This document shows positions 4,235 to 9,132 of a stretch of 64,000 nucleotides of DNA, in pieces. Numbering within the stretch: the first letter of the stretch is position 1; the number at the start of each line of letters is the position of its first letter. Under the pieces are notes generated by a model. That model was not told the origin of the DNA. It did no database searches and saw only the letters and a list, made by a program, of their open reading frames with translations. Made by a program: the position numbers and the translations under genes. The DNA comes from Agromyces marinus (GTDB lineage Bacteria; Actinomycetota; Actinomycetes; Actinomycetales; Microbacteriaceae). The stretch spans positions 1,550,001-1,614,000 of the forward strand of contig NZ_CP087879.1 in the NCBI RefSeq assembly GCF_021442325.1, in the 5' to 3' direction.

Positions 4235-4711
4235 ATGCAGCGGGTGGACGTGCGGCCGATGACGGCGGGCGAGTTCGAGGAATGGCAGACGGAGATCGCC
4301 GAGGCGTATGCCGTCGAGCAGGTCGAAGCAGGTCGCTGGGGCCCGGACGGCGCGGTCGAGCGTGCTCGCGATGAGAATGCGAGGCTGCTTCCGGACGGGC
4401 CGCTCACCGAGCGCATGCTCGTCCTGCGGGGCGTCGACGTCGACGGCGCGCCGATCGGGCGCGCGTGGGTGGGCCTGGACCACCCACGGGGCGCACCGGG
4501 CATCGCCTTCCTGTACGACATCGAGGTCATCGCGTCGCGGCGGGGGCGCGGGCTCGGCCGAGCGCTGCTGAACGCGGTCGAGGAGGCGGCGCGACGAGCC
4601 GGCGCCTCGGCCCTCGAGCTGAACGTCTTCGGCAGGAACACCGCCGCGGTCGGCCTGTACGAGAGCGCCGGGTACGTCGTGGTCACGCAGCAGATGCGGA
4701 AGTCGCTGTGA
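4235..4711 (+). CDS. GNAT family N-acetyltransferase
   Basis: A 158-residue GNAT protein. The acetyl-CoA pyrophosphate-binding motif is clear in VIASRRGRGLGRALL (Arg/Gln-x-x-Gly-x-Gly/Ala pattern), preceded by the central strand FLYDIEV and followed by NTAAVGLYESAGY, the usual C-terminal signature. The acceptor substrate cannot be told from sequence. The ATG at 4235 has a GAGCAT hexamer 6 nt upstream and no good ribosome binding site, so it may be leaderless. Confidence 0.85.
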   Translation: MQRVDVRPMTAGEFEEWQTEIAEAYAVEQVEAGRWGPDGAVERARDENARLLPDGPLTERMLVLRGVDVDGAPIGRAWVGLDHPRGAPGIAFLYDIEVIASRRGRGLGRALLNAVEEAARRAGASALELNVFGRNTAAVGLYESAGYVVVTQQMRKSL

Positions 4712-4758: not shown

Positions 4759-5274
4759 CTACACGTACATCGAGGGATGCGCTCGGAAGTCGACGCGGCT
4801 CGCGGCCTCGAGCACGATCGCGGCGCGTGCGGCCTCGTCGCGAGCGCGCTCGGTCGATTCGGCGTCGCGTTCGCGTTGCTGTCGGTCGGCCTCCGCGCCC
4901 ACCTCGAGGAGGATCTCGCCGATCAGGGCCGCCAGGCCGGCGGTGAGTTCGGCGAGGTTGGTGTGTCCGATGACGAGGCGTCGGTCGACTGCCTCGAGCG
5001 TCGCCTGCGCATACCCTGAATCGTGGAGCCGCGACGCCACGGCGGGGGCCGCCAGCAGGCGCAGCTCGGCCGACGACGGGCGGCGCGTGAAGACCGCGGA
5101 GACGTCGTAGCGCTCAGGCTCCTCCATGGTGCCGATCGTCGGCGGGAGTTCGCCCACCAGCACATGCGTGACACCGAGGTCGGTGCGAGCGGGCTGCGGA
5201 ACCTCGTCCATCGGCGCTCGTGTGCGGGAGGCGCTGAGGTCGCCTTCCGCCTGGCTTTCCTGAGTGTGCTTCAT
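4759..5274 (-). CDS. Hypothetical protein, unknown function
   Basis: No family recognised. The 171-residue protein has a mixed N-terminal half with strand-like segments (GVTHVLVGELPP, YDVSAVFTRRP) and a long Ala/Glu/Arg-rich helix from about residue 120 to 160 that could form a coiled coil. The start at 5274 was chosen because CATACT lies exactly 6 nt upstream on the minus strand, the leaderless pattern seen elsewhere here; the GTG at 5310 and ATG at 5298 lie upstream of that hexamer. It converges with the GNAT gene. GC content is like the host chromosome, so it seems to lie outside the island. Confidence 0.55.
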   Translation of the reverse strand: MKHTQESQAEGDLSASRTRAPMDEVPQPARTDLGVTHVLVGELPPTIGTMEEPERYDVSAVFTRRPSSAELRLLAAPAVASRLHDSGYAQATLEAVDRRLVIGHTNLAELTAGLAALIGEILLEVGAEADRQQRERDAESTERARDEAARAAIVLEAASRVDFRAHPSMYV

Positions 5275-5280
5275 CTCCGG

Positions 5281-5286
5281 AGTATG
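5281..5286 (-). promoter_or_regulatory. -10 hexamer for a leaderless transcript of 4759-5274
   Basis: CATACT on the minus strand, 6 nt before the ATG at 5274. It fits nAnnnT only and is weaker than the other examples. Confidence 0.35.
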
Positions 5287-5440
5287 GTCGCCGAACATGT
5301 GCGCACTCACAGGTGGGGAGGGGGCGTGAACGGGGCATCCCGGTCACCGACTGGATACGGCGCTTATCAAGTCGGGGTCTATTCGAGCTCGAGGAGCCGC
5401 CGTTCTCCGTTGTTGCCGTCCGCGGATCCAAGACCTCGGG

Positions 5441-5446
5441 TAGCTT
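5441..5446 (+). promoter_or_regulatory. -10 hexamer for a leaderless DUF4262 transcript
   Basis: TAGCTT followed by 7 nt and then the GTG at 5454. No purine-rich ribosome binding site precedes the GTG, which supports leaderless translation and the choice of this start. Confidence 0.5.
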
Positions 5447-5453
5447 TAGCCCC

Positions 5454-5936
5454 GTGCAATCTCAGGACCCCGTCGACCGGCCATATCAGCAGCTGCTCGG
5501 ATTGATCACTCAGTACGGTTGGGCCATTCGGCACGTCGGTAGTGCTGGCACGGCGCCAGGGTTCTCGTACACGGTCGGTCTGACTGCGATGGGGCACCCC
5601 GAATTCGTGATGACTGGAATGCCGTTTGAGGCTTCGCAGGGATTCTTGAACCTGCTGGGCGCCGATGTACGTGACGGGAAGCGTTACGCGGCCGGCACTG
5701 TCGTCTGGGATCTCACCGAGCCTCCGGCGCCGATCGCCATCATTGCAGTGAGTGAAACGACCGGGTTGACAGCGATCGATGAGGTCTATGGTCGCGTAGA
5801 CGCTCTCCAGGCGATCTGGTCTGATTCGACGGGACACCTTCCGTGGGATGAGGGATACCGAAACCCGCCCGATACGCAGCCGCTGCTTGGACCACTTCCT
5901 GTGTGGCGGCTCGGGCGCCCGGGCCCTAGTTCCTAG
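5454..5936 (+). CDS. DUF4262 domain protein, possible island cargo
   Basis: The 160-residue protein carries the DUF4262 pattern GFSYTVGLTAMGHPEFVMTG, a domain of unknown function common in actinobacteria and often encoded on accessory DNA. Its base composition is clearly lower in GC than the flanks, like the recombinase genes beside it. Its stop codon overlaps the end of the convergent zinc-ribbon recombinase gene by 11 nt, so the two have travelled together or been fused tightly at the island edge. The frame is open upstream to 5313, but the GTG at 5454 fits the leaderless promoter and the domain start. Its job in the element is unknown. Confidence 0.8.
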   Translation: MQSQDPVDRPYQQLLGLITQYGWAIRHVGSAGTAPGFSYTVGLTAMGHPEFVMTGMPFEASQGFLNLLGADVRDGKRYAAGTVVWDLTEPPAPIAIIAVSETTGLTAIDEVYGRVDALQAIWSDSTGHLPWDEGYRNPPDTQPLLGPLPVWRLGRPGPSS

Positions 5937-7413
5937 GAGTCGTGCGGCTGATGAGCGGATACGTTGCCATCTGAGTGCCGGCTCGAGCTGCGTGTGCAGC
6001 CATCGTGTTGAGGCCGTAGCCAAGCATTGAGGAAAGCGTGCTGATGTCGAGCTCCTTCGTGAGGTCGTTCAACGTTGCGTTTCTGCTGGCTTGGGGTCGG
6101 ATGCCGAAGATCGTGAAGCGGTTCCAGAGCGAGTTGGCCTGGATGTGCCGGCCTGGCTGCGTGGACGGAAACAGCCAGACCGACGCGTCGGTTGACGATC
6201 GGGTTCCTTGATGATTCGCGGCGAGGTACTCGCTGAAGAGAGGGAGAAGCGGCTCAGGGACCGGGGCAAGTAGGGGGCCAAGCTCGATGGTCATGCCGTT
6301 CGGTGTATGAGCAATGGCGTCGCGCTTCAGAGTGGCGATGCGCCCGATCTCGGTGCCGTAGAGCAGGAAGATCAGAGCGGCGACCCGAGTGGAAAGCTTG
6401 ACGGTGTCGGCTTCGATCACGGTGCGCAGTGCGTTCATTCGCTCGGTTGGGGTCGACAGGGGAGTGGTCATGGCTTCACGCTTTGGGGCGTGCAGCGGCT
6501 TTCGACGCCCGATCAATTTACGGTTGAGCAGGAAGTTCCGGACGACGGTGCGTGTCGTGGGGCCTTCTGACCAGTAGAGGTCGATGTGTTCCTGAGTGAG
6601 GTATTCGATCTGCGCGTGCTGAGACTCCTCAAGCCAGACCATGAACTTCCCGGCCTCGGTGATCTCCTGCTTCGCCGTGCGTGTGGCGTAATCCATGTTG
6701 GGTGGAGGGTCGTTTCGAAGTCGACGAAGGTGATGCCATCGGCCGAACTGTTCGAGGGGTTGCTGGATATGTGGCCTGCCTGCGAACGACTCGAGTCTTC
6801 GGTCGAGCCAGATCTCGAAGCGAGCGAGGTACTGATCACCGCGACCAGGCATGATGCGGTGGTGAACCAAAAGCTCGCGCAGGTGTTCGACCGCCCGCGA
6901 GTCCGGGATCGCGTCAAAGGCGGCGTGATCGAGTGAGAGGGAACGAGTGCCGATGGCTTCAAGGAGTTCCCTAGCCTGCTTGCCGCCCATCCACGTGACA
7001 ATGCTCTGCGGTCGCTGGACCGATGAGAGTTCACGGATGAGTCGATGTAGCCGCAGGTCGGGTGGATCGTTGGGGCGAAGCACTGTGGTTAGATCCTCGA
7101 CGACGACGCATCGCGCGCATGCGCCCTTCCGGATGCGTTCACCTTCGCGTCCACACCGATCACAGAGCAGGTTGGTGGTGATGCCGGCGCAGTCGCGGCA
7201 GATGAGTTCCTGGGAAGGAGACCTGCCGGGCAGGAGCCGTTGGTCTCCGCAATGGGCGCAGGTCCCGTAGGCGTTCGCCGCGCGAACGAAACAGGCGCCA
7301 CAGACCGTCCCGTCTGGCCAGCGCACGCGGATCTTGCGGACGTCTTGGCCGCAACGGTCGCAGTGTGCCTCGCCCGATGTTCGGGGCCGACCGCGGCCGC
7401 GAAGCTCAGGCAT
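5926..7413 (-). CDS. Zinc-ribbon protein with degenerate tyrosine-recombinase fold
   Basis: A 495-residue protein. Residues 1-11 include GRGRPR, similar to an AT-hook. Residues 18-102 hold six CxxC pairs (18/21, 38/41, 52/55, 72/75, 84/87, 99/102), probably three zinc ribbons. Residues about 240-310 resemble a SAM-like core-binding domain and 325-480 resemble the recombinase catalytic fold (IFLLYGTEIGRIATLKRDAI; WLFPSTQPG; SRNATLNDL; SSMLGYGLNTMAAHAARAG). The box-I Arg is displaced, the HxxR His is missing, LGH has become LGY, and the nucleophile Tyr position reads His/Ala. It therefore looks catalytically dead. From memory, similar proteins occur widely in actinobacteria beside an active recombinase; their role is unknown to me. 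Its ATG overlaps the XRE gene by 8 nt. Confidence 0.82.
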   Translation of the reverse strand: MPELRGRGRPRTSGEAHCDRCGQDVRKIRVRWPDGTVCGACFVRAANAYGTCAHCGDQRLLPGRSPSQELICRDCAGITTNLLCDRCGREGERIRKGACARCVVVEDLTTVLRPNDPPDLRLHRLIRELSSVQRPQSIVTWMGGKQARELLEAIGTRSLSLDHAAFDAIPDSRAVEHLRELLVHHRIMPGRGDQYLARFEIWLDRRLESFAGRPHIQQPLEQFGRWHHLRRLRNDPPPNMDYATRTAKQEITEAGKFMVWLEESQHAQIEYLTQEHIDLYWSEGPTTRTVVRNFLLNRKLIGRRKPLHAPKREAMTTPLSTPTERMNALRTVIEADTVKLSTRVAALIFLLYGTEIGRIATLKRDAIAHTPNGMTIELGPLLAPVPEPLLPLFSEYLAANHQGTRSSTDASVWLFPSTQPGRHIQANSLWNRFTIFGIRPQASRNATLNDLTKELDISTLSSMLGYGLNTMAAHAARAGTQMATYPLISRTTPRN

Positions 7414-7750
7414 CGTTGTCGGGGCGGATTCGCGCTCTCACTGGCCTGTAGGCCTCGATGAGCGGCACTTCAGCGGCACTGCCGACGGCCTTCCGAGGGT
7501 ATTGTGCGCGTACATCAGTCGCCGTGTAAGTGACCAGCTCGTTGACCTCGACGCGGAAGATATCCGCGAGCGCAACGAGCACCTTGAAAGCGATCCGTTC
7601 TGGATCCTGGGCAACGATGCGGTAGATCTGTGATTCCGACAGAGTGATGCCACGCTCTCGGAGTGGTTCGACGAGGTCGCGACTGTTGCGCATCCCCATC
7701 CGAGCCATCAGCTCCCGGGTGTGCCACTCGTAGTGAATCTGACGCTTCAT
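7406..7750 (-). CDS. XRE/Cro-type HTH regulator of the recombinase module
   Basis: A 114-residue protein with one HTH domain near residues 10-72. The pattern WHTRELMARMGMRNSRDLVEPLRERG-ITLSESQIYRIV-PERIAFKVLVALADIFRVEVNELV is the Cro/C1-type fold with the recognition helix in LSESQIYRIV. The C-terminal 40 residues have no known domain. The ATG overlaps the recombinase stop (ATGA) and its stop overlaps the next gene, so all three are translationally coupled. A perfect palindrome overlapping the operon promoter (8885-8903) is a likely operator, which would make this gene an autorepressor; that is inference. Confidence 0.85.
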   Translation of the reverse strand: MKRQIHYEWHTRELMARMGMRNSRDLVEPLRERGITLSESQIYRIVAQDPERIAFKVLVALADIFRVEVNELVTYTATDVRAQYPRKAVGSAAEVPLIEAYRPVRARIRPDNDA

Positions 7751-8871
7751 CGTGAACTCTCCTTTGGATCCGCTCGGGGGAGTCGCGCCCCACTTCGTTC
7801 GACCGTCTCCGTGAGCACCCTGTTCATCTCTCTGGTGCGATAGTCGGGGGAGAGCCGCGTGTAGATACCCGTGGTCGACGCATGCTCGTGGCCGAGTTGC
7901 AGTTGCACGAAGCTCGTATCGAATCCGTGCTCTCCCTGAAGATCCGTGGCGTATGACCGTCTGAGTGAGTGGATGTCGAGCCCCGGTGGGAACCCGAGCT
8001 CGTCAACGAGGGAACGGAATCGCTTCCGGAGGTAGCCCTTGTCGACCATGCGCCCGGTGTCCGTTGGGAACAGGGGAGCGGCTCTGCCAACGCCAAAGCG
8101 CGGCAGTCCCACCCGTATCCAGTGGTCGAGAAGCTCGACCGACCAGTCGAAAATCGTAAGCACGGTGCGCTGCTTCGGTGGCGCTCCCTTCATCGCTTTC
8201 CCGACCCGTACTCGTAGGACGCCCCAATCGCCATAGGCCGGCATCCGCGCATTGCGTGAGAAATCCGGGAGGATGAGGTTCCTTGCCTCGTTGTGTCGCA
8301 GCCCCCACGCATAGAGCGTCTTGAACATCACGGCGTCGCGCCAAGCTGCGAGAGCCCCTTTCCTGCCCGCGGAAAGAATGCGCTCCGGTTCGAGATCCGC
8401 AAGGTCGAAGAACTCCTGCAGCTCGAGCGGGCTGAATGGCCGCTTCTCGCCATCGGGGGACTCGTCGGAGTGCTTCGCCTTGTTGAACTCGGTTACCACC
8501 TGAGTGAAGACCGTCCCGAACCATTGGCCGCAACGCTCGTTCCAGTCATAGTTCGGGTCGCCAGCGAACTCCAGGAACAGCTTGACGTCCGACTGGTAGG
8601 CACGCACGGTGTTGTGAGCACGATTCTCGACACCGCGCAGGTGCCCGAAGAAGTCGTCAGCATCCGAGGGAAGCCACTCCCATGGGTGGCTGCCAGCGAA
8701 CGACGCCATCCGTTCGACCGATCGGATTCGGCGTTGGATCGTCACCAACCCGAAGTTGCGAGCAAGCTGTTGACGCTTCCACGCAGTCAGAATCTCGTTC
8801 AGGAACGTGTCAGCGTCCATCGCAGGGCGAGCGCTGGGAAGCCAACTGACGTTGCCGATCTGATCGCGCAC
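7747..8871 (-). CDS. Tyrosine recombinase (XerC/D-like integrase), intact
   Basis: A 374-residue integrase with an N-terminal SAM-like domain (about residues 20-110) and a catalytic domain with the full residue set, numbered from the chosen start: Arg192 in YAWGLRHNEARNL, Lys near 225-228, His301 and Arg304 in IHSLRRSYATDL, His328 in LGHEHASTTGIY, and nucleophile Tyr337. It should cut and join DNA at a specific site. The start is GTG at 8871, with AAAGGAG 5 nt upstream; upstream in-frame TTG at 8892 lies inside the operator palindrome. It is the first gene of a coupled operon with an XRE regulator and a dead recombinase, in DNA of lower GC than the flanks. A dif-like site lies about 230 bp upstream. 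Confidence 0.93.
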   Translation of the reverse strand: MRDQIGNVSWLPSARPAMDADTFLNEILTAWKRQQLARNFGLVTIQRRIRSVERMASFAGSHPWEWLPSDADDFFGHLRGVENRAHNTVRAYQSDVKLFLEFAGDPNYDWNERCGQWFGTVFTQVVTEFNKAKHSDESPDGEKRPFSPLELQEFFDLADLEPERILSAGRKGALAAWRDAVMFKTLYAWGLRHNEARNLILPDFSRNARMPAYGDWGVLRVRVGKAMKGAPPKQRTVLTIFDWSVELLDHWIRVGLPRFGVGRAAPLFPTDTGRMVDKGYLRKRFRSLVDELGFPPGLDIHSLRRSYATDLQGEHGFDTSFVQLQLGHEHASTTGIYTRLSPDYRTREMNRVLTETVERSGARLPRADPKESSR

Positions 8872-8884
8872 GGACGCTCCTTTC

Positions 8885-8903
8885 GTCTGCAAATCTTGCA
8901 GAC
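8885..8903. promoter_or_regulatory. Perfect palindrome, likely operator of the recombinase operon
   Basis: GTCTGCAA-ATC-TTGCAGAC is a perfect 8-bp inverted repeat with a 3-nt centre, 14 nt before the recombinase start. It covers the candidate -10 hexamer CAAGAT (8893-8898, minus strand). A further TCTGCAA copy at 8915-8921 sits in the candidate -35. This is what a site for the adjacent XRE repressor would look like. It could instead be an arm-type recombinase binding site. Confidence 0.6.
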
Positions 8904-8921
8904 AAAGCGCAAATTCTGCAA
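8893..8921 (-). promoter_or_regulatory. Candidate promoter of the recombinase operon
   Basis: On the minus strand TTGCAG (8916-8921) and CAAGAT (8893-8898) are separated by exactly 17 nt. The -35 shares TTG with the consensus and the -10 shares A2, A5 and T6. Both hexamers overlap TGCAA repeats, so the promoter should be shut by a bound repressor. Confidence 0.45.
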
Positions 8922-9104
8922 GAGCCGGTGAGATATCCGCAGATCAAACGGCGAATTCACCCTTCAACCCGGCACCACGACGCAGCCACGGCCTTCGAGC
9001 GAAGCGCTGCTGCAAAATCCCTGATCAACCCCGCGAAGGGTGCGGGATGGCGGTCGCGTATCACGGGAGGGCTATTGGCAGAATCCGCGAATAGTCACCC
9101 TACG
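8922..9104. other. Gene-free right part of the island
   Basis: Part of the 336-bp stretch between the recombinase start (8871) and the DUF1801 gene (9207). It is AT-richer than the host and no coding frame of plausible composition was found. It includes a small inverted repeat CTATT / AATAG (9072-9093). Short elements for recombinase arm binding could lie here, but none could be identified by eye. Confidence 0.4.
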
Positions 9105-9132
9105 TTCGGACATAATGTGCATTATCGGCGTG
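9105..9132. other. dif: dif-like XerCD recombination site at the island edge
   Basis: The plus strand reads TTCGGACATAA (9105-9115), TGTGCA (9116-9121), TTATCGGCGTG (9122-9132): two 11-bp arms around a 6-bp centre. Compared with the actinobacterial dif consensus as I remember it (XerC arm TTSRCCGATAA, XerD arm TTATGTCAAGT), the inner 22 bp at 9109-9130 match completely. The outer bases of both arms differ, most of all on the island-facing XerD arm. Base composition returns to host level just to the right. It is either the chromosomal dif or an attachment site derived from it. Confidence 0.65.

Follow-up and report, generated by a model that had tools for sequence, protein, structure and literature searches.

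The strand-biased circularizing integrative elements (SE) carry four core genes, IntA, Tfp, IntB and Srap, with a recombinase operon at one end, six target bases at the recombinase-gene end, and a protein, Tfp, that has a recombinase fold without the RHRY residues (PMC10214605). A partly similar arrangement occurs in Agromyces marinus. The window analysed, 64,000 nt of this genome (NZ_CP087879.1, positions 1,550,001-1,614,000; GCF_021442325.1), contains three genes, here called A, B and C, beside a dif site, and we consider it about 80% probable that they belong to a small and autonomous integrative element targeted to dif, with A as the recombinase and C as an inactive partner. Of the two SE marks at the joints, a 6-bp target spacer at the recombinase-gene end and a 6-bp footprint of the old site at the other, the spacer also fits the trio elements. 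However, SE possess two RHRY recombinases and four core genes and are described from Gammaproteobacteria only (PMC10214605), whereas the trio has one catalytic recombinase, a helix-turn-helix (HTH) protein, CxxC pairs on the inactive partner, an actinobacterial distribution and dif as its target. Assignment to SE, which requires two RHRY recombinases with Tfp and Srap, was rejected: the elements L073/L074 (locus numbers are ours) hold A, B and C, of which one is catalytic.

In the GInt elements (GinA-GinD), the first Arg or the catalytic motif is missing from GinC, and all four genes are nevertheless reported to be essential (PMC5385486, PMC10214605). GInt differ from the trio in having two catalytic recombinases and GinD; the minimal trio elements hold one, not ginABCD with two, and are not GInt. 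The term 'dif site' is absent from the text of the GInt paper (PMC5385486). Tn554 and the actinobacterial Tn554-like elements (TnpA, TnpB, TnpC) resemble the trio in two adjacent recombinase-type genes with a small third gene and in a 6-bp footprint or junction (PMC3414803, PMC10214605). Both their recombinases have the catalytic motif and the long one measures 611-828 amino acids, whereas C is a shorter protein without the catalytic set; with no C among 111 keeping more than two of five catalytic positions, a Tn554-like element with catalytic TnpA and TnpB was rejected. In the RIT (recombinase in trio) elements, too, three genes overlap by a few bases (PMC3414803), but all three proteins of the archetype carry the catalytic Tyr (PMC10214605). 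B is an HTH_26 protein and C has His at the Tyr position, so that the locus is not a RIT element, as a first-pass annotation of this DNA had already pointed out.

IMEX integrate at dif, as the trio does, and stack there. They are described as carrying a dif-like site and using the host XerCD (PMC5357621, PMC9765430), and integrated IMEX such as GGI have Xer sites at both ends (PMC5357621). In the trio elements the joint lies outside the arm and not in the dif centre, and no dif-like site (4 mismatches allowed) was found at the far end of, for example, L033, L034, L066, L067, L070, L072 and L075, so that they were not classed as IMEX. Since a defining feature of each of these families was looked for and was not found, the element is filed as a variant of the recombinase-driven integrative elements outside SE, GInt, Tn554, IMEX and RIT.

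The trio and its target are arranged as follows.

7747-8871, minus strand: gene A, GTG start, catalytically complete Xer-like tyrosine recombinase.
7406-7750, minus strand: gene B, 114-residue Cro/C1-type HTH protein.
5926-7413, minus strand: gene C, 495 residues, six CxxC pairs and an inactive tyrosine-recombinase fold.
9105-9132, minus strand: dif site (XerC arm, centre, XerD arm), whole, adjoining the element.
9104-9109, minus strand: hexamer CCGAAC, which separates TTATGT from the element and is taken to come from the target.
About 5349-9103, minus strand: putative mobile element, left end 9103, right end about 5349.

The genes overlap by 4 nt (A/B, 7747-7750) and 8 nt (B/C, 7406-7413), in agreement with the coupled three-gene operon on the minus strand that the first-pass annotation had described; an in-frame TTG lies upstream of the GTG of A, at 8892. 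Protein A matches Phage_integrase (PF00589, E 1.4e-15) and the N-terminal SAM-like domain PF02899, and its nearest solved chain by sequence is XerD (1a0p, E 1.2e-10). The full R-K-H-R-H-Y set credited to A is found throughout its relatives, with five residues kept in at least 128 of 129 distinct A sequences (box-I Arg, HxxR His and HxxR Arg 129 each; box-II His and Tyr 128 each) and K or R in the beta-strand Lys column of 113, and the predicted catalytic competence of A is thus well supported. Protein B matches HTH_26 (PF13443, Pfam, E 1.7e-9); of the 'XRE repressor' proposed for it, the HTH domain stands and 'repressor' is a reading of that domain match. When genome contigs were scanned with 12 aligned C proteins, 140 relatives were found; 80 of them, in 79 loci, were retained. 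Nine of these loci have less than 1.4 kb upstream of C and were excluded; in 69 of the other 70, C is immediately preceded by A and B, the sole exception being the decayed locus L142, and the trio is therefore not a chance neighbourhood. The three genes are thus found together in other genomes, and the similar proteins that the annotation placed in many actinobacteria are indeed widely distributed there. The span of the annotation, 5926-8871, stops just short of the decisive feature, dif at 9105-9132: the trio it recognised is real, but the nature of the locus as a mobile element, the dif target and the two side-specific clades described below were missed.

The dif core CGCCGATAATGCACATTATGT lies at 9110-9130, where shuffling gives an expectation of 0. 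No other place in the 3.20-Mb genome matches it with 2 or fewer mismatches, and it stands at about 48.7% of the contig. The 28-mer of the window is identical at 24 of 28 positions to the Frankia alni dif sequence printed in PMC3025954. A dif-like match at up to 1 mismatch was present in 50 of 60 genomes searched (own included), with exactly one in 46 of the 50. Judged by its single copy per chromosome and its conserved arms, 9105-9132 qualifies as dif. As to a position at the replication terminus, the GC skew is +0.04 to +0.10 left of dif, about 0 to the right, and rises again from about 30 kb, with no clean switch within the window.

After 23 of the 79 loci had been left out for too short a flank, 46 of the remaining 56 showed a dif-like site in the same position and orientation, 1713-1848 bp ahead of C and differing at no more than 2 of 15 bases (25 of them perfect); at 2 mismatches the reverse strand gave 0/56 and the downstream stretch 0/51. 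All 13 plasmid loci fetched (13 of 224 records, chosen from 40 listed) have CCGATAAT-N4-ATTATGT with at most 2/15 mismatches, on the same strand as A and about 240-280 bp before it. Over 68 distinct sites of the class to which the window belongs (class I, below), the conserved string reads GCCGATAAt..ACATTATGTCAAgT and is followed by element DNA.

The bases just after TTATGT vary among these 68 sites and between copies of one element; as they differ between pairs of the same element, they come from the target. CCGAAC likewise follows TTATGT in the dif of L064, which, with L057, is a relative of the window with an element-free dif and synteny on both sides; the left end at 9103 was placed by such comparison of target and element. 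An unfilled site was also found on plasmids, where the right flank of L071 continues straight into dif in pJ337-114 and pJ340-114, which have no class I element at the compared place. The unfilled sequence is TTATGTAAAGT-TGTTTGC (L156) and the filled one TTATGTCAAGTC-element-CCAGTT-GTTTGC (L071), and no target duplication is seen. At L091 and L108 the joint keeps only the half-site TTATGTCA, which may be what the recombinase needs.

Trios are found on either side of dif. With 24 trios left out because no A matched and another 20 because the flank was too short, 120 could be scored: 69 are class I (XerD-arm side, as in the window), 16 are class II (XerC-arm side) and 35 have no dif-like site. 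The distance from dif to A is 237-292 bp in 65/69 class I and 194-214 bp in 13/16 class II trios. In some loci the other side of the same dif is occupied as well, by a second, divergent A-type gene that mostly has its own trio (L066, L067, L069, L070, L114, L115, L140, L143, L147, L149), and in L155 an A-type gene stands on the opposite (class II) side alone. In a tree of C (111 distinct rows, quick method) class II forms one branch (SH-aLRT 99) and 60 of 62 class I rows fall in one 68-row clade (support 100), the other two being a long-branched pair; in the A tree (FastTree) class II is on one branch as well (local support 95). That A and C sort alike by dif side fits a joint role, but genes travelling together would give the same pattern. 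The class I clade includes eight rows without dif, of which four are second tandem copies, L077 lies directly after the right end of another element, L091 and L108 have the half-site, and L122 is without explanation. Distant trios with no dif-like site before A include L161, L162, part of L164-L178, part of L190-L203, and L212.

By tblastn, relatives of C were found in 224 of the 72,556 plasmid records but in 0 of the 50,697 phage records; within the order, 30 of the 248 genomes (that of the window among them) have C, whereas the six other genomes of the genus listed have none. In Paenarthrobacter sp. YJN-5 the same 4744-bp element (99.9%) is found on two plasmids with different flanks (L033/L034). 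Two Arthrobacter agilis plasmids (L073/L074) share 3272 bp annotated with A, B and C only, so that the trio seems to be the minimal element. L071 and L072 share a 3983-bp element and differ outside it, and the pairs L069/L070 and L082/L084 likewise share the element with different outside sequence. Tandem trios occur after one dif. P. ureafaciens AT has a tandem pair of elements on pA and, deposited separately, a 4712-bp circular 'plasmid' pD (L031, NZ_CP094493.1); this record consists of the element only, starts exactly at the junction and has two bases fewer than the tandem copy, and may represent an excised circle or an assembly product of the tandem pair. The same-element pairs at different sites, the unfilled plasmid sites and the tandem copies together support mobility of the element. 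In L067, L072, L077, L097, L098 and L100 a right end runs directly into what appears to be the left end of a further element, so that arrays seem to accumulate at a single dif. Five plasmids of two Rhodococcus qingshengii strains carry an identical class II C (L066 1142-2954, L204, L205, H47-H51), which suggests recent movement.

Protein C has two recognisable parts.

7108-7362, minus strand: six CxxC pairs, residues 18-102 of C, read as three zinc ribbons.
5959-6783, minus strand: residues 211-485 of C, core-binding and catalytic-domain tyrosine-recombinase fold, inactive.

The first-pass annotation had described a conserved recombinase fold deprived of its catalytic set, six CxxC pairs and a GRGRPR motif, and these features are borne out. 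The pairs (C18/21, 38/41, 52/55, 72/75, 84/87 and 99/102) probably form three zinc ribbons; 107 of the 111 C sequences retain all 12 Cys. An RGRPR motif is also present. C passed none of the curated cut-offs of Pfam and NCBIfam, and among the PHROGs the best match had E 0.053; public labels on its relatives include 'recombinase XerD', 'Fis family transcriptional regulator', 'site-specific recombinase' and 'hypothetical protein'. The AlphaFold2 model (pLDDT 85.4, pTM 0.71) gives recombinase-type matches across residues ~211-485, with Xer enzymes on DNA as the closer matches, and a tyrosine-recombinase fold with core-binding and catalytic domains is confidently predicted. Alignment with the catalytic motifs confirmed the loss of the box-I Arg, the HxxR His and the Tyr: in the 111 sequences the box-I Arg is found 7 times, the HxxR His 2, the HxxR Arg 105, the box-II His or Trp 0 and the Tyr 2 times. 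The window protein has E355 at the box-I Arg and H474 at the Tyr, and keeps the HxxR Arg as the only one of five. An active recombinase with the R-K-H-R-H/W-Y set was rejected for C, as every one of the 111 sequences keeps at most two of the five positions.

C may act as a site-choice or bridging subunit, a suggested role that would agree with these data. C could instead be a DNA-binding regulator, a repressor or directionality factor, in the manner of the phi3T repressor SroF, which has a recombinase-like fold. We regard this as unlikely: Xer enzymes on DNA are the closer matches to the model, the trio already includes an HTH protein, and C sorts with A by dif side, which would be expected, though it is not proved, if C takes part in the use of the site.

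Integration by the host XerCD, as in IMEX, with A, B and C regulating or stabilising the element, is a still weaker proposition. The element does lie at dif, some right ends (GATAA-N5-CTTA) are faintly half-dif-like, and the host has XerC- and XerD-like genes elsewhere, whose best NCBIfam matches are the XerC/XerD models, slightly under the equivalog cut-offs. Such integration would, however, be hard to reconcile with joints beyond the XerD or XerC arm, with a dif-like site (up to 4 mismatches) that in most fetched plasmid loci occurs once, beside A, and is missing from the opposite end of the element, with a 4712-bp circle (possibly an artefact) that has no dif-like site at up to 4 mismatches, or with the catalytic completeness of A throughout. 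That C still cuts DNA by a relocated nucleophile is very improbable. Tyr485 (window 5959-5961) is kept in 110/111 C sequences, and the usual nucleophile position, mostly His or Trp, is Tyr in only 2; but the box-I Arg (7/111) and HxxR His (2/111) are lost too, and Tyr485 lies at the start of a low-confidence tail, where docking into an adjacent subunit is as likely a function. A domesticated host system in support of dif function, for which the whole dif beside class I and class II copies might be cited, is scarcely credible for genes of such patchy occurrence (30/248 in the order, 0/6 in the listed members of the genus) that are found on many plasmids in repeated and stacked copies.

In the favoured reading, a dif-homing integrative element, A would recombine the joined ends of the element, presumably in a circular intermediate, with the DNA that borders a dif arm on its outer side, giving the class I joint after TTATGTCAAGT (XerD arm) and the class II joint after TTATCGGC (XerC arm). 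A crossover outside dif would leave dif whole and reusable by further copies; because dif is left whole at each insertion, copies stack and XerCD dimer resolution should be spared. C would most likely join A at the recombination site by its core-binding domain, completing the synapse, and would read dif or the element ends, perhaps with its zinc ribbons. The operon is most likely under the control of B, acting at a palindrome upstream of A.

Several observations weigh against this reading. Ten of the 56 loci lack a dif-like site at up to 2 mismatches; L105 is a second tandem copy, L142 is decayed, L100 and L093 have 3 and 4 mismatches, and L091/L108 have the half-site, but L076, L081, L121 and L144 are without explanation. 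Among the 35/120 scorable trios without a dif-like site, 26 distinct ones, one of them on a Streptomyces plasmid, fall outside both clades, so that dif homing is not universal and other sites are used in the wider family. On the plasmids with an unfilled site, the match extends over dif and the right flank, but not over the left flank beyond dif. In the window the right end at about 5349 is assigned by a motif shared with pair-mapped ends, the GTG start (5313) of the gene that overlaps this end falls outside it, and some 1.25 kb past it is also without a match in the element-free L064/L057. The 4712-bp pD 'circle' is possibly an assembly artefact, and the loci are not all independent, some being identical or nearly so. 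The trio, its position and orientation beside dif, the side-specific clades, the unfilled sites and the stacking can be read from the sequences themselves, whereas the role of C, the binding target of each protein, the zinc, the regulation, the circular intermediate and the sparing of dimer resolution are inferred.

More tentatively, and at slightly less than even odds, the trios would constitute a dif-nesting transposon family of Actinobacteria in which the dead zinc-ribbon recombinase is the target reader, the two clades read the XerD and the XerC side, both can flank one dif, and dif stays intact under stacking. Such elements would then turn chromosomal and plasmid dimer-resolution sites into safe harbours. 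The dif site is conserved, normally single-copy, and found here on chromosomes and many plasmids; an element that recombines beside it without breaking it would be able to land in most hosts without harm and to pass between plasmid and chromosome. The division into two clades by side of dif is a natural experiment on what each protein reads and makes the role of inactive recombinase partners, also of Tfp and GinC, directly testable. The trio also gives meaning to many plasmid genes that at present go by such names as 'recombinase XerD', 'Fis family transcriptional regulator' and 'hypothetical protein', and might yield a dif-targeted integration tool for Actinobacteria.

Further features of the window copy are the following.

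8885-8903, no strand assigned: perfect palindrome GTCTGCAA-ATC-TTGCAGAC upstream of A, a possible operator.
9073-9093, no strand assigned: left subterminal imperfect inverted repeat TATTCGCGGATTCTGCCAATA.
5350-5368, minus strand: right-end motif GATAAGCGCCGTATCCAGT, sole loose-motif match on this strand in the first 20 kb.
5313-5936, plus strand: convergent DUF4262 gene (PF14081, E 4.9e-26), probable cargo of the window copy.

The palindrome is the sole match in the window at up to 3 mismatches (shuffle mean 0.09). Related elements have a repeat similar to the left one at the same place, such as TTATTCGCATGTAATGCGAATA in L068; as a single strand its folding is unexceptional (z -0.98). The right-end motif in a stricter form was found after C in the window and in eight more of the 69 class I loci (9 in all), and thus marks a subgroup and not the whole class; examples are GATAACCCGCTTACCCAGT (L071, L072), GATAAGAGACTTACCCAGT (L067) and GATAAGTCCCTTATCCAGT (L075). 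Between its assigned ends the element holds A, B, C and most of the DUF4262 gene, for which no relative (E 1e-5) was found in the other trio loci scanned; a GNAT acetyltransferase gene (4235-4711) and an open reading frame at 4759-5310 lie beyond the assigned right end, in the 1.25 kb without a match in the element-free relatives, and may have arrived with an older element. An actinobacterial-type C is also present in a contig labelled Vibrio cholerae 35D (L135) and in an Acidobacteria metagenome-assembled genome (L132), both likely contamination or misbinning. On plasmids, the neighbours of class II trios include a Pycsar-type effector with its cyclase (L208 471-1800) and a RelE/ParE toxin-antitoxin pair (L209 5858-6423).

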